Source: Spartobacteria bacterium
GTDB lineage: Bacteria; Verrucomicrobiota; Verrucomicrobiia; Chthoniobacterales; UBA10450
Reading direction: 5' to 3'
DNA length: 64,000 bases
NCBI GenBank assembly: GCA_003134765.1
Contig: PLCM01000015.1
Span: 65,421-129,420 of the forward strand
Positions 7,662-60,021 of the stretch are shown here, one piece after another. The notes under the pieces are model-generated. The model saw only the letters and a program-made list of their open reading frames with translations. It was not told where the DNA came from and did not search any database. Position numbers and translations under genes: made by a program. Numbering within the stretch: the first letter of the stretch is position 1; each line of letters starts with the position of its first letter.

Positions 7662-8993
7662 TTAAGGATGGGCGAACGCGTCCCAGCACTCCAAAAAGCC
7701 GGGAGCGAAATCTTCGGGCCGGGCTTTTATCCAACCGGAAATGACGCCGGTGGGGAAGAATTCCCCATGGTCAATTTCGCTTTTGGCGAGCTGAAACGGG
7801 CCGTCGTGCTCCCCCCGGTAAAGCCAGATGAATTCGTGGCCGGTCCGGTCTGAGGCGGGGATCTTCACCACGCGAATGAGCTCCGCCGTCACTCCAAGCT
7901 CTTCTTTCAGCTCACGCGCCGCCGTGACATCATACTCCTCGCCGGCTTCAACATGGCCGGCGGCACTGGAATCCCAGAGCAAGGGATGACGATCTTTCGA
8001 ACGCGACCGTTTTTGGAGGAAAAGCTCGCCGAACCGATTGAAAATGAAGAGGTGAACGGCCCGATGCCGCAAGTTATTCCCATGCACTTCCGCGCGAAGG
8101 GCGTCGCCGATGACGAGGTCACTTTCGTCCACAACCGGGAAGCGCTCGGCGACAGGGGCGATCTCCCCGTCGGCCAGCCGTAGGCGAGAACGTTCCGACA
8201 AGGAGATCCATTGCGCCAAGCTCAATTCCTCGGCGCGCGCGCGGGGATCGAAACCGACCGCGGCGGTGGCCTGTTCCCACTCGGGCACTTCATTCTTCAA
8301 CAAATTTCGGAGCTGCTTCCGCCGTTGCGAAAATCCCTGCCGGACGATTTGAAAAAACGTCTCCGGATCGTGCTCCGGCAATTCATCCGGAAGCCGTGGC
8401 GTGATCCGGACGAATGCGGAATCCACGTCAGGGGCCGGGAGGAAAACCGTCGCGGGCACAGTGCGAAGAAACTCGACGCGATAGTTCAGTTGAACGACGA
8501 GAGTGAGTGCGCCGTAGTCGCTCGTTCCCGGCGCCGCGGAAATTCGTCGCGCCATTTCCTTTTGTAACATTAACAACCACAGTGAAATAGGACTGGGATA
8601 TTTTGTGAATTTGAGCAGCAGCTGACTCGCGATGTAATACGGAAGATTGCCCAGGAGCTTTACCCGCCGCTCGGCAAACAGCGGGCGGAGATCGAAATCA
8701 AGCGCATCCGCGTGAATGATTTCAAGGGGCGCGTCGACAAACCGGCTGCGGAGAAATTCCACGAGGCGTTGGTCTTTTTCGATCGCGAGAACGCGCGCGC
8801 CGGATTCGAGAATGAATTCCGTGAGAGCTCCGAGTCCCGGCCCGATTTCGACGACGTAATCGTCGCCGGTCAGCTCAGCTTTCCCGACAATCCAGCGCGC
8901 CAGATTACGATCATGCAAGAAATTCTGACCGAGCGTCTTTACCGGTGAAACCCGGATCCGGCGCAAGGTTGCGTCGATCTCGGAGAGCTTCAT
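7662..8993 (-). CDS. rsmA: RsmA 16S rRNA dimethyltransferase fused to a Nudix hydrolase
   Basis: Residues 1 to about 265 are RsmA/KsgA, which dimethylates two adjacent adenines near the 3' end of 16S rRNA. Visible motifs are KTLGQNFLHD, the SAM loop VEIGPGLGALTE near residue 46 and the catalytic NLPYY near residue 115. After a linker, residues about 295-443 form a Nudix domain of the isopentenyl-diphosphate isomerase/YfcD-like type. Its Nudix box is complete: G-x5-E-x7-REL-x-EELGV at about 346-368. RsmA is usually about 270 residues, so the Nudix domain is an extra module. The start is ATG 8993 (MKLSEIDATLRR). One continuous frame spans both domains. Confidence 0.92.
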   Translation of the reverse strand: MKLSEIDATLRRIRVSPVKTLGQNFLHDRNLARWIVGKAELTGDDYVVEIGPGLGALTEFILESGARVLAIEKDQRLVEFLRSRFVDAPLEIIHADALDFDLRPLFAERRVKLLGNLPYYIASQLLLKFTKYPSPISLWLLMLQKEMARRISAAPGTSDYGALTLVVQLNYRVEFLRTVPATVFLPAPDVDSAFVRITPRLPDELPEHDPETFFQIVRQGFSQRRKQLRNLLKNEVPEWEQATAAVGFDPRARAEELSLAQWISLSERSRLRLADGEIAPVAERFPVVDESDLVIGDALRAEVHGNNLRHRAVHLFIFNRFGELFLQKRSRSKDRHPLLWDSSAAGHVEAGEEYDVTAARELKEELGVTAELIRVVKIPASDRTGHEFIWLYRGEHDGPFQLAKSEIDHGEFFPTGVISGWIKARPEDFAPGFLECWDAFAHP

Positions 8994-53164: not shown

Positions 53165-55060
53165 ATGTCGGAGCCGGTCCTCAATTCCATTGCCAGCGCG
53201 AGCGAGCTCGTGGTGCGGTTCGGGAATCAGGTTGTGCTCGATCGGGCGACGGCGACGATTCTCGAGGGAGAACGGGTGGGACTGGTGGGTCGAAACGGTT
53301 CCGGGAAATCGACGTTCCTCCAGATTGCGGCGGGCGTGATGCAGCCCGACGCGGGCGAGTTCAACCAACGGCGCGATCTCGTTGTCGGTTACATGCCGCA
53401 GATGTTCGAGCTGGATGAGAAAGCAACGGTGCACGCCAACATTCTCGCCGGCGCCCAAGGCGTGCTCGATTTGATCGCCGAATACGAGACCGCGCCTGCG
53501 GAAAGCGCGCGGAGCGGAATCCTGCTCGATCAGATCGCCCATTTCGACGGCTGGAACCTTGAGCATCGGATCAAGAGTTTGATCACGAATCTGCATGCGC
53601 CGGACCCGGAACGGATCGTGGCCACTCTTTCCGGCGGAGAAAAGCGGCGGGTCGCGCTTTGCCGGGCGTTACTGGCGCGGCCGGATTTTCTGATCCTCGA
53701 CGAGCCAACGAACCATCTCGATACCGGCTCGATCGAGTGGCTCGAGGATTTTCTCGCCCGTTACCAGGGGACGTGCCTCTTCGTGACGCACGACCGTTAT
53801 TTTCTCGATTTCATTGCGACGCGCGTGCTCGAACTCTCGCGGGGAAAGTTTCACAGCTACGAGGGGAACTACACGGATTACCTGATTGCCCGCGCGGAAC
53901 GTCAGGCGGTGGAGGAGATTCAGGAACACAAGCGCCAGAAGTTCCTGAAACGCGAGCTGGCGTGGGTGCGCAAGGCGCCCCGCGCCCGACGAACGAAATC
54001 GGTGGATCGCGTCGAGCGTTACTTTGAGATGGCAGGGCAGGATGCGCCGGAGGCGGAGCTGGATGTCGATCTCATCATTCCGCCCGCGCCGAAGCTGGCG
54101 AATCGCGTGATCGAATTGCGCGAAGTCGGGATGGAATTGGGCGGCCGTGCCCTGTTCCAAAATGTTTCTTTGAATCTCGCGGCCGGGGAGCGGCTTGGCA
54201 TTGTCGGGCGAAACGGGCTGGGAAAATCGACGCTCCTCAGGATCATGCTTCAGCAGCTGGAGCCGACGAGCGGGACCGTTGAGCTCGGGGCGCGGACCGA
54301 GATTAATTATGTCGATCAAAATCGGCTCCTGCTCGATGACGCAAAGACCGTCTGGGAAGAAGTGGGCGAGGGGAGCGAATACGTTCGTCTCGGCGAGGAA
54401 AACATTACTCTGCGCGGTTATCTCCGGCGTTTCCTTTTCACCGAGGAGCGGATCAACACGAAGATCAATCAGCTCAGCGGCGGCGAGCGGAGCCGCGTCC
54501 TGCTCGCAAAGATTCTCAAGCGGGGCGGCAACGTTCTCATCCTCGACGAGCCGACAAACGATCTCGATCTCGGCACGCTGCGTTTGCTCGAGGAAGCGCT
54601 CGTGGCCTTTGGCGGCAGCGTGATCGTGGTGAGCCATGATCGTTATTTTCTGAACCGCGTTTGCACCGCGATCCTCGCTTTCGAAGGGGAGGGCGTGCTC
54701 CACTACCACGTCGGAAATTACGATTATTATCTTGAGAAACGCGCTGTAGCCGGGATCGGTGATCCCGGCCCGGGAAAGCGCGCATCGGCCGGGATCACCG
54801 ATCCCGGCTACAGGAAGACGAAGCCGCGCAAGTTAAAATGGAAAGAGGAGCGCGAACTGGAAGGAATGGAGAGCGCGATTCTGGCAGCGGAAAACGAAGT
54901 CACGAGAATCGAAACGCTTTTTGCGGAGCCAAATTTCTATGTGGTGCACGCCGCCGAGCTGACGAACTTTGAAGCGGAGCTGCGCGCCGCCCGCGATAAA
55001 GTAGCGCGTCTCTACGCCCGCTGGGCGGAGCTGGGCGAAGTAGCGGGCATCTCCGGGTAG
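53165..55060 (+). CDS. ABC-F ATPase with an in-frame palindromic-repeat insert
   Basis: The 631-residue product has two ABC domains in one chain and no membrane part. Walker A motifs are GRNGSGKSTFLQIAAG near residue 45 and GRNGLGKSTLLRI near residue 350; signatures are LSGGEKRRVALCRALL and LSGGERSRVLLAKIL; Walker B motifs are FLILDEPTNHLD and VLILDEPTNDLD. A Uup-like linker and C-terminal coiled coil follow. Residues about 527-549 ([21 protein letters not shown]) are encoded by a palindromic repeat. ABC-F proteins act on the ribosome. The stop codon lies in another inverted repeat. Start ATG 53165. Confidence 0.92.
   Translation: MSEPVLNSIASASELVVRFGNQVVLDRATATILEGERVGLVGRNGSGKSTFLQIAAGVMQPDAGEFNQRRDLVVGYMPQMFELDEKATVHANILAGAQGVLDLIAEYETAPAESARSGILLDQIAHFDGWNLEHRIKSLITNLHAPDPERIVATLSGGEKRRVALCRALLARPDFLILDEPTNHLDTGSIEWLEDFLARYQGTCLFVTHDRYFLDFIATRVLELSRGKFHSYEGNYTDYLIARAERQAVEEIQEHKRQKFLKRELAWVRKAPRARRTKSVDRVERYFEMAGQDAPEAELDVDLIIPPAPKLANRVIELREVGMELGGRALFQNVSLNLAAGERLGIVGRNGLGKSTLLRIMLQQLEPTSGTVELGARTEINYVDQNRLLLDDAKTVWEEVGEGSEYVRLGEENITLRGYLRRFLFTEERINTKINQLSGGERSRVLLAKILKRGGNVLILDEPTNDLDLGTLRLLEEALVAFGGSVIVVSHDRYFLNRVCTAILAFEGEGVLHYHVGNYDYYLEKRAVAGIGDPGPGKRASAGITDPGYRKTKPRKLKWKEERELEGMESAILAAENEVTRIETLFAEPNFYVVHAAELTNFEAELRAARDKVARLYARWAELGEVAGISG
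54744..54813. repeat. Palindromic repeat inside the ABC-F coding sequence
   Basis: CTGTAGCCGGGATCGGTGAT and its near complement ATCACCGATCCCGGCTACAG form the ends. The closest relative is the intergenic copy at 51088-51156. The phase in the gene avoids the TAG in both ends. Confidence 0.8.
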
Positions 55061-55177
55061 CGCACGCGTCTCGCGTGTTGGCGACTCCGAAAGCTTTCGC
55101 GAGTCACGGACTTTCCGAAGACTGTTTTGGCGAGACGCCAAAACCAGCACGCGAGACGCGTGCGCTACCCGGAGATT
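55049..55177. repeat. Long inverted repeat supplying both convergent stop codons
   Basis: The left arm ATCTCCGGGTAGCGCACGCG TCTCGCGTG (55049-55077) and its exact complement at 55147-55175 are 29-base perfect arms. The ABC-F gene ends in the left arm, the DUF2071 gene in the right arm, each with the codons for Ile/Arg-Ser-Gly then TAG. It can also act as a bidirectional terminator. Confidence 0.8.
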
Positions 55178-55935
55178 CGATTCGGCCGGCCCATCCAGAC
55201 TTCGGCGCCCGGGGAATAATTTGCGCTGATCACTTCCGCGGTTCTGTACCATGCTCCGGTGCTTCGGAGAATGCTGTCTTCGGTCACCTCGATTTCGGCG
55301 GGCGCCTGGCGCCACGGCTCGTGCCAAATGCGGAAGAGGCGGCGCCGCTGTCGTTGCTGCGTGAAGGCGGTGTAACGCTCGAGCATGAATTCGGTCTCGG
55401 ATCCGATCTCACACGGCTGGAAGCTCGAATTGCGGATTTTTCCTTCATAACGGAGGGACCCTTCTTTGGCTGCCACGGATCCACAAAGGATGGAGCCGTC
55501 CGGCGAGTGTTCGTAGCGCACCCGGCCGGAGCGATAGGGCAGACCAAAACTGCGCGGACCCAAAAAAACGCTCAACCGGTTTGGGAGCCATTCGGCCAGG
55601 AAGAATATGCCGGGTTCACCTTGATGCCGCACGTAGGTGCGAACATTAAGAAACTCGTGGGTGGCGATCGGTTTCAAAAGCCACTCGCTCAGTTTTTCGC
55701 CGATCCGCGGTCGCATTCGCGACAAAGTAAACGCAACGATGCTAACGAAGGCGCGCCCATCGCGGAGATCGAGCTCGAAGGGAACGTCGCGCTGCAGCGT
55801 GGCCGCGTCGGCCCCGTAGTGAACGAACACCGCGCGATCCCAGCGCGCGTAAAACATCGGTTCGCCGGGGACGGAAAGCATTCGACGCCGGGCTGCTTCA
55901 CTCAACGTGCTGCGACCTGCCGCGACACTTTCCAT
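55165..55935 (-). CDS. DUF2071 (YqjF-like) protein
   Basis: The 256-residue soluble product matches the DUF2071/YqjF layout: MFYARWDRAVFVHYGADAATLQRDVPFELDLRDGRAFVSIVAFTLSRMRPR, HEFLNVRTYVRHQGEPGIFFLAEWLPNRL, LPYRSGRVRY and a terminal FYTEVI-like strand set. Function is unknown; family members bind small molecules in an acetoacetate-decarboxylase-like fold. The start overlaps the DoxX-like gene by 38 bases. It is the last gene of the regulator-led operon. Confidence 0.82.
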   Translation of the reverse strand: MESVAAGRSTLSEAARRRMLSVPGEPMFYARWDRAVFVHYGADAATLQRDVPFELDLRDGRAFVSIVAFTLSRMRPRIGEKLSEWLLKPIATHEFLNVRTYVRHQGEPGIFFLAEWLPNRLSVFLGPRSFGLPYRSGRVRYEHSPDGSILCGSVAAKEGSLRYEGKIRNSSFQPCEIGSETEFMLERYTAFTQQRQRRRLFRIWHEPWRQAPAEIEVTEDSILRSTGAWYRTAEVISANYSPGAEVWMGRPNRISG

Positions 55936-56335
55936 TTTCGATCAGTAGTTTTGTCTGTGCCACTAACAGCGAGAGCGACCAGACGGTGTAGGCGCAGGCT
56001 GTCAGGCAAAGGTCTTTGATGAGCGCGCCGTAGGGATCGGTCAGCATCGTTGGGTTCGCCATCGCGACGAGGACGATGAGGATCCACATGCCGATGGTGG
56101 CGATTGCGACCGCCATCCGTTGAGCGAGACCAACCAGCAGCCAGATTGCGAACGCAACCTGGGCCGCGCCTAACAACTGCAGAAAAAACTCCGGCGTTCC
56201 AAAATAAATGCCGGATCGCCGGACGAGATCGACTTGATCTGGCCGAACGAAAAGGAGTTTAGGCACGAGCCCTTCGTAAAACCAGACGGCGCCTAACGAG
56301 AGCCGGCAAACAGTGACTGCCGTTTTGATGCTCAT
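55898..56335 (-). CDS. DoxX-like membrane protein, 145 aa
   Basis: The product has four hydrophobic helices and the DoxX-like start MSIKTAVTVCRLSLGAVWFYEGLVPKLLF, with FLQLLGAAQVAFAIWLLVGLAQRMAVAIATIGMWILIVLVA in the middle. DoxX-type proteins are small redox or quinone-linked membrane proteins. The ATG at 56335 overlaps the stop of the previous gene by one base (TAATG), so it is translated as part of one operon. Confidence 0.75.
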   Translation of the reverse strand: MSIKTAVTVCRLSLGAVWFYEGLVPKLLFVRPDQVDLVRRSGIYFGTPEFFLQLLGAAQVAFAIWLLVGLAQRMAVAIATIGMWILIVLVAMANPTMLTDPYGALIKDLCLTACAYTVWSLSLLVAQTKLLIENGKCRGRSQHVE

Positions 56336-56763
56336 TACAAACCCCGCCCGGCCGCCGTGAAGTAAACCGCCGCGAAAGCGCCATAACCAAAAAAGAGCAT
56401 CCAATGGATCGCCGTGCGGACCTTGTCGCCGCGCCAATGGACTGTGCTGTAATGCGACCATTGCATCACGGAACGGACGGCCCAGAAAACGCCGATGCCG
56501 ATGGCCAGCCAGATGCACAAGGGACTAGAGGCGGTTGCTAATTCGCCGGCGAAACGCCAGGTGAGCGCTCCGAAAATCCCCAGCGTGATCGAGATGAAAT
56601 AGATGTGGATCTGGAAGACTTCGCGAATGAGCAGCGGCGCGCTGACGAGATCGCCCTCCCACTTCATGAGCCGAACGAGAAAGAGATTCAGGACCGCCAC
56701 GCCGAGCTGGGCAAGCGCGGCGGAGCGGAGAAAAAATTCGAGGTGATCGAGAAGTAGTTTCAT
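56335..56763 (-). CDS. Membrane protein of unknown function, 142 aa
   Basis: Four predicted membrane helices: LRSAALAQLGVAVLNLFLV, IHIYFISITLGIFGALTW, LCIWLAIGIGVFWAVRSVMQW and AIHWMLFFGYGAFAAVYF. Two His (HIYF, SHYST) and the motif WSHYSTVHW resemble haem- or quinone-binding loops, though this is not firm. Its ATG overlaps the previous stop (ATGA). I recognise no family. Confidence 0.65.
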   Translation of the reverse strand: MKLLLDHLEFFLRSAALAQLGVAVLNLFLVRLMKWEGDLVSAPLLIREVFQIHIYFISITLGIFGALTWRFAGELATASSPLCIWLAIGIGVFWAVRSVMQWSHYSTVHWRGDKVRTAIHWMLFFGYGAFAAVYFTAAGRGL

Positions 56764-57698
56764 TGCTGGAGGGACGGCGCTCTGTCGCCGTCGTTGTAAA
56801 GGTTGGCGAGCGCATCCCGCACGGTGGGGAATTGAAATTGAAATCCGTGTTCGAGAAATCGGCGTGGAACGCAGCGAGAGCTCAACAGCGCCAGATCCCC
56901 TTCGCTTCCCATCAGCCACGCGCCAGTCCGCGCGAACGGCGCAGGCACCGATGGACTCCAGGGCCGATGCAAAGCGCGACGCAGCTCGCGCATGAATTCG
57001 CCGTTTGTCACGGGAGCGGGCGCGGTGGCGTTGAATACACCGCTCAGCTCAGGCTCCTCGAGCGCCGACATGAACATCCGCACCACATCCGCAACATGGA
57101 TCCAACTGATGAATTGCCGCCCGTTGCCCACCGCGCCGCCCATAAACCAGCGCGTTAGTTTCCCCAGCACGGAAAGCGCGCCACCATTGCGGCCCAGCAC
57201 CGCGCCGAGTCGGAGGACGACCTTGCGCGTAGTTCGCAGGTCAAGCGCGTCGAACGCGCCTTCCCATTGTCGACAGACGTCGGCCGGGAAATCGGCCCCG
57301 CGCGGCGCACCTTCATCGGCCACGCGATCGCCCGTGTCGCCATAATAACCGACGCCGCTGGCCTGGACAAAGATCTTGGTCGCTGTCGCGCAATGTGCGA
57401 TCGCTTCGCCGAGGGCTCGCACCGAGTCGACGCGCGAACGAATAATCTCGCGCCGATTCTCCAGCGTATGCCGGCAGTTCATGTTCTTGCCCGTGAGATT
57501 GACGATCGCGTCCGCTCCCTCGATCGCGCTCGCCCAGCCGCCGATTGTTTTTCCGTCCCACTGTTGGTAATCGATTCCGTCTTTCCGGTGAGCCGCGCCG
57601 CGCCCCAGCACAACCAACTCGTAGCCTTTCGCAAGGAGAGCAGGCGCAAGAGCCTGACCAACGAAACCCCTGCCGCCTGCGAGAATGACGCGTTTCAT
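56760..57698 (-). CDS. TIGR01777-family epimerase (SDR39U1/YfcH-like)
   Basis: The 312-residue product is an NAD(P)-binding SDR protein. Motifs: VILAGGRGFVGQALAPALLAKGYELVVLGRG at the N terminus (GGxGFVG), VNLTGKNMNCRHTLENRREIIRSRVDSVRAL near residue 68, QASGVGYYGDTGDRVADEGAPRG near residue 112 (the Tyr of YYG in place of the YxxxK motif is typical of the group) and FISWIHVADVVRMFM. Substrate is unknown. The last 10 residues (NDGDRAPSLQQ) are encoded by half of a GGAGGGACGG-type repeat. Its start overlaps the previous gene's ancestral stop. Confidence 0.85.
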   Translation of the reverse strand: MKRVILAGGRGFVGQALAPALLAKGYELVVLGRGAAHRKDGIDYQQWDGKTIGGWASAIEGADAIVNLTGKNMNCRHTLENRREIIRSRVDSVRALGEAIAHCATATKIFVQASGVGYYGDTGDRVADEGAPRGADFPADVCRQWEGAFDALDLRTTRKVVLRLGAVLGRNGGALSVLGKLTRWFMGGAVGNGRQFISWIHVADVVRMFMSALEEPELSGVFNATAPAPVTNGEFMRELRRALHRPWSPSVPAPFARTGAWLMGSEGDLALLSSRCVPRRFLEHGFQFQFPTVRDALANLYNDGDRAPSLQQ

Positions 57699-58104
57699 AC
57701 CGGTGCAGGTTGAGCGCTGCGCGACCGAAAATAAAGACCAGCGCGGCGAAGAGCAGGGTCAGTCCGTGATAGCCGAGCCGCAGAAACGTAGTGGTGAGAA
57801 AGGCTCGCGCATCGAACACGAAAAACTGCACCACCAGGCGTGCCAGCCAAAAGATCGCGATGATTGCGCAAACCGAGCGAGCGAAAGGCGCGCCGGAAGC
57901 AAGTTCGTCCGCGTGCCGCAACGTGAGCATCCCAAATGAGATGATCACCAGTACAATGAAGCAGCCGTAAACCCAGAAGAGCCGGCGCAGGAATGGATGC
58001 AGCGCTGCCAGGTTCGCGCGCCAATCGAGGACGCGCGGCGTTAGCGCGCTCGCAATAAGGATCACGAAGTGCAAAATGCCGCCGGTGAGAAGCAACGTCT
58101 TCAT
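57695..58104 (-). CDS. Small membrane protein, 3' end frameshifted
   Basis: The product starts MKTLLLTGGILHFVILIASALTP and has four hydrophobic helices: the N-terminal one, then RRLFWVYGCFIVLVIISFGML, SVCAIIAIFWLARLVVQFFVF and LGYHGLTLLFAALVFIFG. The annotated frame does not stop at its expected end near 57695 and would run on out of frame across the next gene to 57313. In the neighbouring frame a TGA at 57695-57697 overlaps the next ATG as ATGA, exactly like the other junctions of this operon. A one-base shift near 57720 is therefore likely. The true protein is about 136 residues. Confidence 0.6.
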
Positions 58105-59366
58105 AGCGCTCCGATCGCTCGCATGAACGGGAGGATGACGTTCCGGACGAACGGCGGGTGAAAGAGGCAATATGCCGGCGCGGCGACCACGATCATCGTG
58201 AAGAACCATCCCGGCGTGCCGCTGCGCAGAACGGTCCATTTCCGCTCGGCCACCACAGCCAACCCTTGAAGGAGAAAATACGCCGTCGGCAATCCGAAAC
58301 CGGCGCCTGCGGGCAGCGAGATCACCAGCTCATGGATCAATCCCGAAACAGCGAACGCAATTAGCGTTGCGGCAAGAATTCCCGTGTGGCGCGCCACCGG
58401 ACGAAAGACCAAACGAACCGCGAGATCATTGAAAGCCGCGTTCCAGCGTCGCCCCCAAAATTCGGAGACGGAGGTCGAGCACAGAGGATGATTCATGATC
58501 GGCGCCGCATCCACCCGCAGCGCTCTCCATCCGGTATTGGAGAGATCGAACAAGCCAAAGTGCAAGATCAGGATCATTCCGACCATCCCGATCCAGCCGG
58601 AGAGAACTGGTTCGGTTGCGTGGCGCGAGACGCCAAAAAGCAGGCACGCTCCGAAAAGAATCCGACCGCTGGCGAACGCCGCCTCCCTCATCATGGCCCA
58701 TCTCGGAAATCGCGGGGCGAGATCTGGCGAAAGAAAACGGGCCGCGTCCATCCCGGGCCACGCCAAGAGGTAAGCAGCAGCGCGAAATGGACAAACGCGG
58801 CCGAGGCGTTGGATCGAAGTTCCGAGCGTGAGCCATTTGCATCCGAAAAATATTGCCGCGGCCATGAGCCACATGAATTCCCAGGCCGACAGAACTGGCT
58901 TCGTGCCCAGCGCAACCAGCGGGAAGATTGCCAGCGCGGCCCATCGTGTCCGTGCCGGAAATGGTCGAGTTGCCGTCGAATTGATCGCGCAGGTGCGATG
59001 AGCGGCGACCCATCGATAGAGGCGGTGCAGAAGCGCGTGAACGAACGGCAAGCGCGCGAGAAAAGCCAGCGGCGTCGCCCACCAGATTTGGCGCGCGAGC
59101 GCGACCACGGCGTCGGCGCCGCCGAAGATTTCGCCCGCGCTGGTGAGAACGCGCATTTCTTCCAACGCTTCGTCGCGCGTTAGCTTCAGGCGCCGCTGAA
59201 CCCATTTCTGCTGGAGGGGCTCGAAACAAAAGCCGCGCTTCGCCAGGACATTCTCGAAACGAAGCGCGAGTTCGCGGCAGAAGCTGCAATCCCGGTCGAA
59301 AAGGATCCAGCCGCGGAACGGAACGGATTCCGCTGGTTCTGTTATTTCTGTCAGTTCAGAAATCAT
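58101..59366 (-). CDS. DCC-type thiol oxidoreductase fused to MBOAT_2 acyltransferase
   Basis: Residues 1 to about 130 match the DUF393/DCC thiol-disulfide family: WILFDRDCSFCRELALRFENVLAKRG with the CxxC pair, then GGADAVVALARQIWW and LARLPFVHALLHRLYRWVAAHR. After about residue 140 the chain is polytopic with wax-synthase-type MBOAT_2 features: SVSEFWGRRWNAAFNDLAVRLVFRPV and the His-containing SGLIHELVISLPAGAGFGLPTAYFLLQG. The acyl acceptor is not clear. The pairing of the two domains in one chain is notable. The start ATG 59366 is followed at once by a palindrome that matches one upstream of the regulator. Confidence 0.85.
   Translation of the reverse strand: MISELTEITEPAESVPFRGWILFDRDCSFCRELALRFENVLAKRGFCFEPLQQKWVQRRLKLTRDEALEEMRVLTSAGEIFGGADAVVALARQIWWATPLAFLARLPFVHALLHRLYRWVAAHRTCAINSTATRPFPARTRWAALAIFPLVALGTKPVLSAWEFMWLMAAAIFFGCKWLTLGTSIQRLGRVCPFRAAAYLLAWPGMDAARFLSPDLAPRFPRWAMMREAAFASGRILFGACLLFGVSRHATEPVLSGWIGMVGMILILHFGLFDLSNTGWRALRVDAAPIMNHPLCSTSVSEFWGRRWNAAFNDLAVRLVFRPVARHTGILAATLIAFAVSGLIHELVISLPAGAGFGLPTAYFLLQGLAVVAERKWTVLRSGTPGWFFTMIVVAAPAYCLFHPPFVRNVILPFMRAIGAL
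59345..59362. promoter_or_regulatory. Palindrome TTTCTG-N6-CAGAAA inside start of DCC-MBOAT gene
   Basis: It lies 2 bases into the coding sequence. A second copy with the same arms is at 59930-59947, upstream of the regulator gene. Together they look like operators for the operon's own regulator. Confidence 0.6.
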
Positions 59367-59379
59367 GGGGTAAAAAATT

Positions 59380-59919
59380 TCAGGCGGCGGGAGCGATGCC
59401 CAGTAATTTGAAAGCCTTGTCTCCCAGCTTCGCCAGCTTCAGGACCGCGGACGTCGGCAACTTCTCCATCTGATCGTAAGCGTTGGTCGTTATCTCGAAA
59501 AAGTTGACCAGGTCGGCCAGGCGTTCGCGGGTATACGGTGCGGCCGCTTTCGGTTTGCTCGATTCTGCAATGCAATCTCGCAGGACCCGCAAGGTCGGTT
59601 CGATCTCCCGCTTTTTTCGCTCGCGGGCGATGACCCGGAACATGGCGAAAACGTCTTTCATCGATTCGAAGTGGTCGCGGCGATCGCCGATCACGTGGAC
59701 AACCCGGACGATGTCCCAGTTCTGCAGTTCGTGGAGGCTGGTGCTGATATTGGAGCGGGCCACGCCGAGGGTCTGGGCGATCTCGTCGGCCGGGAGCGGT
59801 TTCTCGGAGAGGAAGAGAAGGGCATGGACCTGGGCGACGGTGCGGTTGATTCCCCAGCGGGTCCCCATCTCCCCCCAGTGGAGGATAAATTTTTGGGCGA
59901 TGGGCGAGAGATTTGTCAT
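59380..59919 (-). CDS. GbsR/MarR-family transcriptional regulator
   Basis: The 179-residue product has a winged-helix domain: GINRTVAQVHALLFLSEKPLPADEIAQTLGVARSNISTSLHELQNWDIVRVVHVIGDRRDHFE, typical of the GbsR-like branch of MarR regulators. Its C-terminal half is helical (REIEPTLRVLRDCIAES). It leads the operon (next gene 13 bases downstream). A palindrome 10 bases upstream of its start suggests autoregulation. Confidence 0.88.
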   Translation of the reverse strand: MTNLSPIAQKFILHWGEMGTRWGINRTVAQVHALLFLSEKPLPADEIAQTLGVARSNISTSLHELQNWDIVRVVHVIGDRRDHFESMKDVFAMFRVIARERKKREIEPTLRVLRDCIAESSKPKAAAPYTRERLADLVNFFEITTNAYDQMEKLPTSAVLKLAKLGDKAFKLLGIAPAA

Positions 59920-59929
59920 TGGTCAGTCA

Positions 59930-59947
59930 TTTCTGTCTAAACAGAAA
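59930..59947. promoter_or_regulatory. Palindrome TTTCTG-N6-CAGAAA upstream of the regulator
   Basis: TTTCTGT and ACAGAAA are exact 7-base arms, 10 bases upstream of the GbsR/MarR start codon. It matches the copy at 59345-59362 at the outer six bases on each side. The inferred role is an operator. Confidence 0.65.
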
Positions 59948-60021
59948 ATAAAGAAACCTGACCCGGCGTCAAATCAAAAGAATAAAACCGGCCCCCGGGA
60001 GAAAATGCCGTGAAAATATTG

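Follow-up and report, generated by a model that had tools for sequence, protein, structure and literature searches.

Organization of the operon

The DNA analysed here (the window) is a 64,000-nt stretch, positions 65,421–129,420, of contig PLCM01000015.1 from a Spartobacteria bacterium and is part of a 4.05-Mb draft genome. Seven genes, each of them on the minus strand, make up an operon at positions 55165–59919 of the window: from first to last, gbsR, DCC-MBOAT, memA, SDR, memB, DoxX and DUF2071. Every gene of the set that a previous sequence-only reading had grouped into one system is present.

The first gene, gbsR (59380–59919), encodes a 179-amino-acid GbsR/MarR-type regulator. The MarR_2 model recognises its MarR-type winged helix (2.8e-9; 37.5 bits against a cut-off of 27), and its kinship to GbsR comes from a match to CudC, the NCBI equivalog for a choline-responsive GbsR relative, that lies below the cut-off (5.5e-14; 52 bits against 218); the MarR part of the earlier assignment stands, and the GbsR part hangs on that sub-threshold match. 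DCC-MBOAT (58101–59366, 421 amino acids) joins in one protein a DCC1-like thioredoxin-type domain, with a CxxC motif, and an MBOAT_2 domain (Pfam, 1.6e-14 and 6.4e-10; for MBOAT_2, 39.6 bits against a gathering score of 25), confirming the DCC–MBOAT fusion proposed before. It is followed by memA (58104 down to an expected end near 57697), which encodes a four-helix membrane protein, the proposed partner of the MBOAT; SDR (56760–57698), of the TIGR01777 family (YfcH/ThyD-like; 277.7 bits, cut-off 207.35), which scores below the cut-off of the ThyD model NF050030 (223.9 bits against 400); memB (56335–56763), a paralogue of memA; DoxX (55898–56335), a DoxX_3 membrane protein (1.6e-18); and DUF2071 (55165–55935), with an acetoacetate-decarboxylase-like fold (Pfam, 1.7e-37; 129.6 bits against 27). 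Pfam and NCBIfam thus uphold the SDR, DoxX-like and DUF2071 assignments made before. The DUF2071 protein remains under the cut-off of the Pfam acetoacetate decarboxylase family ADC (19.3 against 29.8), and the Schiff-base lysine of acetoacetate decarboxylase is described as not conserved in DUF2071 (PMC4520260). In PADLOC, the regulator weakly matches Csa3 through its winged helix (1.9e-4) and the other six proteins have no match up to 0.01; nothing further in PADLOC pointed to a role in defence.

The genes had been described as packed with ATGA or TAATG junctions. This is so for DCC-MBOAT/memA and SDR/memB (ATGA) and for memB/DoxX (TAATG); the other junctions differ: 13 nt separate gbsR from DCC-MBOAT, and DoxX overlaps DUF2071, counted from the ATG used as its start, by 38 nt. 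In memA the stop codon expected near 57697 is missing, and the frame runs on to 57313, within the SDR gene, overlapping it by about 390 nt (57313–57703). Because the memA stop and ATGA-type junction are kept in all four relatives compared (genome G051, two contigs of G058, and G087), the open frame points to a recent frameshift or an assembly error.

Recurrence across genomes

In tblastn searches with the seven proteins, the full set was found in G051, in G058 (on two contigs) and in G087 (locus L045), and a partial set in G018 (L075) and G088 (L077). That G058 carries two operon copies (L044 and L113, on contigs 11 and 12) is doubtful, since rpsL and rpsG lie on both contigs and one is probably binning contamination rather than a duplication. 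A scan of a species-genome collection with an alignment of DCC-MBOAT turned up 117 relatives; the 80 best were retained as loci. Such a choice leans towards sequences close to the query, and many of the contigs are short of the full stretch, so that the counts are not population frequencies. The 80 loci come mostly from Verrucomicrobiota, Planctomycetota and Acidobacteriota, with two from Chloroflexota, one from Kiritimatiellota and one from a record named Alphaproteobacteria. Haloferula sp. BvORR071 (L123) and Aeoliella straminimaris (L102) are carriers whose records are not MAGs.

Partners were counted with our own profiles from −3.5 to +6 kb on the strand of the MBOAT gene. A mem gene accompanies MBOAT in 78 of the 80 loci, GbsR in 31, DCC in 29, SDR in 21, DUF2071 in 14 and DoxX in 11; under a stricter test, with the mem domain at most 400 bp downstream of the MBOAT domain, 73 of 80 loci qualify. 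The MBOAT–mem pair is all that was found in 39 loci, which supports it as the core pair. Across the 80 loci, just three matches to the operon's families (E up to 1e-8) lie beyond the operon stretch. As the full set recurs in G051, G058 and G087 and in further named Verrucomicrobia loci, with only those three matches outside, a chance grouping of unrelated genes can be dismissed, and the absence of the set from every other genome, which would have spoken against the original proposal, is not what we observe. A single fixed pathway is excluded as well: gene content varies among the 80 loci, and a five-gene block is missing at the site in five genomes of the genus (see below). What survives of the idea of one gene-set pathway is a core pair, MBOAT and mem, with exchangeable partners and one type of regulator and operator.

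Two additions to the gene row were seen among relatives. In G018 the row continues via an SRPBCC protein and the SDR into a CFA synthase, and in L062 and L097 a YndJ gene lies inside the GbsR–MBOAT operon. YndJ is a Bacillus name; no function is known to us for the protein, and it is not known to be paired with an MBOAT there.

The putative acyltransferase and its probable membrane partner

In 88 aligned rows of the MBOAT domain, the residues N309 and H345 are 100% invariant wherever a row extends to their columns, and H269 is conserved in 98%; we take the Asn/His pair to be catalytic, as in DGAT1. The DCC cysteines C27, C30 and C126, which include the CxxC, are invariant in 31 aligned rows. 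Searched against the PDB, the MBOAT sequence profile finds DGAT1 (9.3e-6) and nothing else up to E = 1. The core of the operon is thus a DGAT1/wax-synthase-like MBOAT with a small four-helix membrane protein, mem.

Natural fusions join the same parts in single open frames: DCC–MBOAT–mem in L066 and DUF2071–MBOAT in L086. A structure model of the L066 fusion (pLDDT 83.5, pTM 0.57), built from an alignment in which about 20 MBOAT residues are misplaced per row, has as its top Foldseek row 6bug (4.2e-4), titled only 'a membrane protein', followed by DltB (8jem, 4.4e-4), DGAT1 (1.7e-3) and, weakly, ACAT1 (0.06 and above). The DCC domain also occurs in another fusion: in an acidobacterium (L119, 7407–8927) it is joined to a metallo-beta-lactamase-fold domain directly upstream of an MBOAT–mem pair, and in L079 and L080 DCC lies in frames about as long.

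The two four-helix proteins had been listed as unknowns, and neither is recognised by Pfam or NCBIfam; four mem homologues from other loci likewise have no Pfam match above cut-off. In 117 genomes sampled from the order, searches with memA and memB each pick up the other gene of the window (E of 1.8e-5 and 7.1e-5), which marks them as paralogues; memB-like proteins occur in 10 of these genomes and memA-like proteins in 8. A tree of 106 mem proteins splits with support of 100/98 into clades of 79 and 27. In the larger clade, 78 rows are labelled as lying beside an MBOAT and the 79th is the L066 fusion; the smaller is made up of second copies and of copies with no MBOAT, and three of its rows are also scored as MBOAT-adjacent. 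Many inner forks are poorly supported in this tree of only 141 columns. The split suggests that memA and memB go back to an ancient duplication. The mem alignment used 93 of 108 mem stretches, leaving out partial or odd ones (for example L039, L049, L069 and L111) and several near-duplicates.

The memA model (pLDDT 93.8) has four long helices. Foldseek found no PDB match for it below 1e-3, VIA-align returned only generic four-helix bundles (best Z of 9.4, in a range common for helical bundles), and hhalign gave a probability of 0.3% for mem against a DoxX profile; these comparisons lend no support to a relationship of mem to DoxX or VKOR.

A search with the mem profile that was independent of MBOAT found it in 21 of 288 Verrucomicrobiota genomes, at 30 places; DUF2071 matched 54 of the same 288, and comparison of the two lists by eye puts DUF2071 no more than about 2 kb from mem in nine clusters. 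In 25 regions around mem, one of which (L206) repeats the record of L118, MBOAT is present in 11 and GbsR in 10, always on the strand of mem. Elsewhere mem stands beside a methyltransferase-like gene instead of an MBOAT, in L196 (by Pfam), L041 (at the cut-off) and L042, L193 and L197 (by sequence reading); in L041 (6351–7534), L197 (1–1282) and L193 (5457–6900) the methyltransferase-like gene is membrane-anchored, is followed directly by mem and lies near DUF2071. The mem family may thus serve transferases other than MBOAT.

Predicted operators and promoter

A palindrome, TTTCTGT-N4-ACAGAAA, lies upstream of gbsR. This predicted operator, O1 (59930–59947), reads TTTCTGTTTAGACAGAAA on the minus strand. 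A second, O2 (59345–59362), falls within the first codons of DCC-MBOAT and encodes part of the peptide MISELTEI, so that this N-terminus would in part be operator. The predicted promoter of gbsR (59945–59972, minus strand) consists of TTGACG (59967–59972), a 16-bp spacer and TATTTT (59945–59950), the last overlapping O1. TTGAC precedes a good O1 by 25–27 bp in 21 of 47 loci and lies within 45 bp in 29 of 47 (background 3%), a spacing that would place the −10 box on the operator.

In 1.44 Mb of sequence, in which one record is counted twice (as L118 and L206), TTCTGT-N4-ACAGAA occurs 25 times: 18 copies precede gbsR and 7 lie where the following gene begins. Of 40 copies of the looser TTCTG-N6-CAGAA, 26 precede gbsR, 13 lie where the following gene or MBOAT begins, among them that of L121, which has no GbsR, and 1 is elsewhere; five single-base shuffles of the operator pattern do not occur at all in the same 1.44 Mb. 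With L206 left out, scores of at least 12 of 14 were reached by O1 in 34 of 39 loci and by O2 in 29 of 42. Of 1680 random stretches, some with true sites in them, 36 reached such a score; the loci are often related and are not independent trials. O1 scores just 9–10 in L187, L200 and L207. In the window's own genome, O1 and O2 are the only sites with no or one mismatch, and at two mismatches a control pattern is as rich. A relaxed operator matched 18 positions in 13 genomes (control pattern, 7): 10 at the operon, 2 before an F22 and a methyltransferase gene described below, and 6 elsewhere, of which four were inspected and showed no apparent meaning. G018 has no relaxed match, its operator being a variant (L075). 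In L121 a GbsR-type site lies at 8935, 27 bp before the frame start of an MBOAT with no mem or GbsR nearby.

By sequence, then, an inverted-repeat site stands near the promoter of the neighbouring operon, as is expected of GbsR relatives, and the two conserved predicted operators support the self-regulation that had been proposed. New in this analysis is the placement of the operator, conserved across phyla, over the predicted −10 box of gbsR and once more where the following gene begins.

The same site within the genus

A close gbsR homologue (72–91% identity) is present in all seven other genomes of the genus that were searched, so that all eight carry the gene. Three of the eight have the five-gene block between gbsR and DUF2071; in the other five (G028, G037, G091, G397 and G398), gbsR is followed directly by DUF2071. 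Upstream of gbsR these two-gene genomes keep an operator that scores 12 or 13 of 14. Their site has str-operon genes (rpsL, rpsG or fusA) as neighbours in each of the five, and it adjoins the ABC-F gene in four, whereas in G398 the ABC-F gene is separated from DUF2071 by four other genes. Searches with memA and memB found no mem anywhere in the genomes of G028, G037 and G091. In the gbsR tree the two-gene state forms one clade nested among the block carriers (99/95), which makes loss a simpler explanation than gain; the corresponding tree for DUF2071 has lower support (90/90), and its outgroup was not recovered as a single group. In this genus DUF2071 is the regulator's steady partner, and DCC-MBOAT, memA, SDR, memB and DoxX are the variable block.

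At the far end of the operon, an inverted repeat (55049–55176; arms of 33 nt, 97% complementary, 62 nt apart) spans the gene ends of ABC-F and DUF2071. Its 16-base core has 31 copies in the genome at up to one mismatch (control, 0), often as opposed pairs, and the repeat is a REP/MITE-like element.

Sister operons

The two operator sites found before genes away from the operon precede a small membrane protein, F22 (in G138), and a methyltransferase (in G130). F22 also lies inside six of the MBOAT operons, and two F22 homologues have no Pfam match above cut-off. Among the 288 genomes F22 occurs in 16, at 17 places, accompanied in short stretches by GbsR at 12, DCC at 8, SDR at 8 and MBOAT at 1. 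When the stretches are widened, a TTTCWGT-N4-ACWGAAA site scoring at least 12 precedes gbsR in each of the nine F22 loci that have GbsR (random stretches, 9 of 660), and in L267 and L269, where F22 has no adjoining GbsR, a site of 14 of 14 still lies just upstream. In L263 a sister operon with the same operator type has a fatty acid desaturase between gbsR and F22.

The methyltransferase is found in 7 of the 288 genomes (E of 1e-15), at 8 places, 5 of which have a site of at least 12 near the gene start; of two methyltransferase loci with GbsR, one has such a site upstream of gbsR. The protein is distantly CFA synthase-like, L236 scoring under the CMAS cut-off and L274 over it.

Two genomes of the genus carry a second GbsR–F22–DCC–SDR operon elsewhere (L300, 4380–6740; L301, 4132–6500), with variant sites, TTTCAG-N6-CTGAAA, flanking gbsR on both sides. 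In L270 (4344–7366), DUF2071, GbsR and F22 adjoin superoxide dismutase-like and ferredoxin-like genes, as read from the sequence.

Proposed function and alternatives

We favour, at a probability of roughly 0.55, the reading of this locus as a GbsR-controlled operon for membrane-lipid modification with an MBOAT–mem acyltransferase at its core; the operon probably modifies a membrane lipid. The membrane-lipid theme of the sequence-only reading gains support from the intact Asn/His pair of the MBOAT, the CFA synthase and SRPBCC genes of related operons, and the desaturase in one sister operon. The quinone-like substrate and the redox input that it also proposed are more speculative, the one pointer to them being the CxxC, invariant in the aligned DCC rows.

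GbsR, most likely a repressor, would keep the operon off by binding O1, where the −10 box of the gbsR promoter is predicted to lie, and might also bind O2 at the start of DCC-MBOAT, acting there as a roadblock or through O1–O2 looping. A signal that releases GbsR would then lead to synthesis of an inner-membrane acyltransferase, in which the catalytic MBOAT (Asn309/His345), acting together with memA, may move a fatty acyl group onto a hydrophobic, hydroxylated acceptor. SDR and DUF2071 could make or bind this acceptor, memB and DoxX may be further membrane subunits, and the DCC domain might provide thiol–disulfide chemistry. The gene set and its conservation, the operator sites, the intact catalytic residues and the fusions are read from the sequences themselves; repression rather than activation, a complex of MBOAT and memA, lipid acylation, the order of steps, the acceptor and the signal are all points that we infer.

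Several observations weigh against this reading, which names no specific substrate, product or inducer. The memA gene may be damaged in the window's genome, and the pTM of 0.57 for the L066 fusion permits no claim on an MBOAT–mem interface. In the 39 loci with the bare pair, no other family was seen in the scanned stretch (several of these contigs end early), and in L115 and L121 MBOAT lacks mem. Conversely, 8 of the 25 mem regions in Verrucomicrobiota have no clear partner, so that mem also acts elsewhere, and the absence of the block from five of the eight genus genomes implies that DUF2071 and GbsR also work without it.

A different kind of acyl transfer is conceivable. A DltB/AlgI-like MBOAT, with mem as accessory subunit, could carry acyl groups across the membrane onto a sugar polymer of the envelope; the L066 model does match DltB slightly ahead of DGAT1 in Foldseek, but the sequence profile recovers DGAT1 alone from the PDB, the Pfam family is MBOAT_2, and no glycan gene was recognised among the recurrent neighbour families (no search was aimed at DltD/AlgJ-type partners), which leaves glycan O-acylation unlikely. 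We give still less credence to a photo- or oxidative-stress membrane operon of the kind induced by light in Pseudomonas, in which photolyase, SDR and the furan-fatty-acid synthase UfaM are clustered. SDRs and CFA-type methyltransferases are common to both (PMC9758184), and a superoxide dismutase-like gene, by sequence reading, follows GbsR–F22 in L270; the regulator here is, however, of GbsR rather than LitR/MerR type, and no photolyase or FAD oxidoreductase was noticed by eye among the operons listed, no aimed search having been made.

That DCC, DoxX and SDR form a thiol-redox membrane oxidoreductase, with acyl transfer secondary, would fit the invariant DCC cysteines and the persistence of DCC and SDR in GbsR operons without MBOAT, yet DCC was not found in 51 of the 80 MBOAT loci and DoxX occurs in only 11, and we consider this quite improbable. 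The least probable of the alternatives is an osmotic-stress operon in which GbsR senses choline or betaine, as in Bacillus. The regulator's kinship to CudC/GbsR points that way, as does the A/T-rich inverted repeat with 4 bp between half-sites that is described for the B. subtilis operator (PMC7396694), but the CudC model stays far below its cut-off, no choline or betaine genes were recognised by eye in the operons, and other GbsR groups, according to PMC6207618, lack the choline cage, CydE using sulfate.

Relation to known systems

The GbsR/OpcR/CydE regulators of the MarR superfamily offer the closest regulatory parallel: as here, a GbsR-like protein is encoded beside its target genes (PMC6207618, PMC7396694), and the B. 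subtilis GbsR acts as a roadblock at an inverted-repeat operator that shares the 4-bp spacing (PMC7396694). The conserved half-site here, TTTCTGT, may be distinct, and the operon is predicted to be autoregulated through two operators and holds lipid-type genes rather than osmolyte or cytochrome bd genes. With the wax synthases, DGAT1 and ACAT of MBOAT_2, the enzyme shares the Pfam family, the Asn–His pair and the fold match; it differs from them, as known from sequence, in its N-terminal DCC domain, its near-constant partner mem and its place in a bacterial operon. The light-induced UfaM clusters under LitR/PplR in Pseudomonas are likewise a small regulon with an SDR and a fatty-acid-modifying methyltransferase, whereas the present operons have another regulator, an MBOAT–mem core and no photolyase that was seen (PMC9758184). 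Literature searches on MBOAT with GbsR or with the carrier phyla, and on pairs of the operon's families, showed no description of the gene set among the papers listed, in line with the earlier reader's statement of knowing no described pathway with it.

More tentatively, the GbsR operator may define an undescribed, modular regulon for membrane-lipid remodelling in Verrucomicrobiota, Planctomycetota, Acidobacteriota and a few other groups, with MBOAT, desaturase and CFA-type methyltransferase as exchangeable enzymes around DCC, TIGR01777 and DUF2071; mem would then be a new, anciently duplicated family of obligate MBOAT subunits, and the product could belong to a class of lipids that has yet to be seen.

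The membranes of soil Verrucomicrobiota, Planctomycetota and Acidobacteriota are poorly explained, abundant as these bacteria are. Five families whose roles are not established (mem, F22, DUF2071, DoxX_3 and TIGR01777) are linked by the operon to a single regulator and its defined DNA site. A list of obscure genes thereby becomes a regulon open to testing, and a class of bacterial acyltransferases resembling DGAT1 gains a predicted partner protein.

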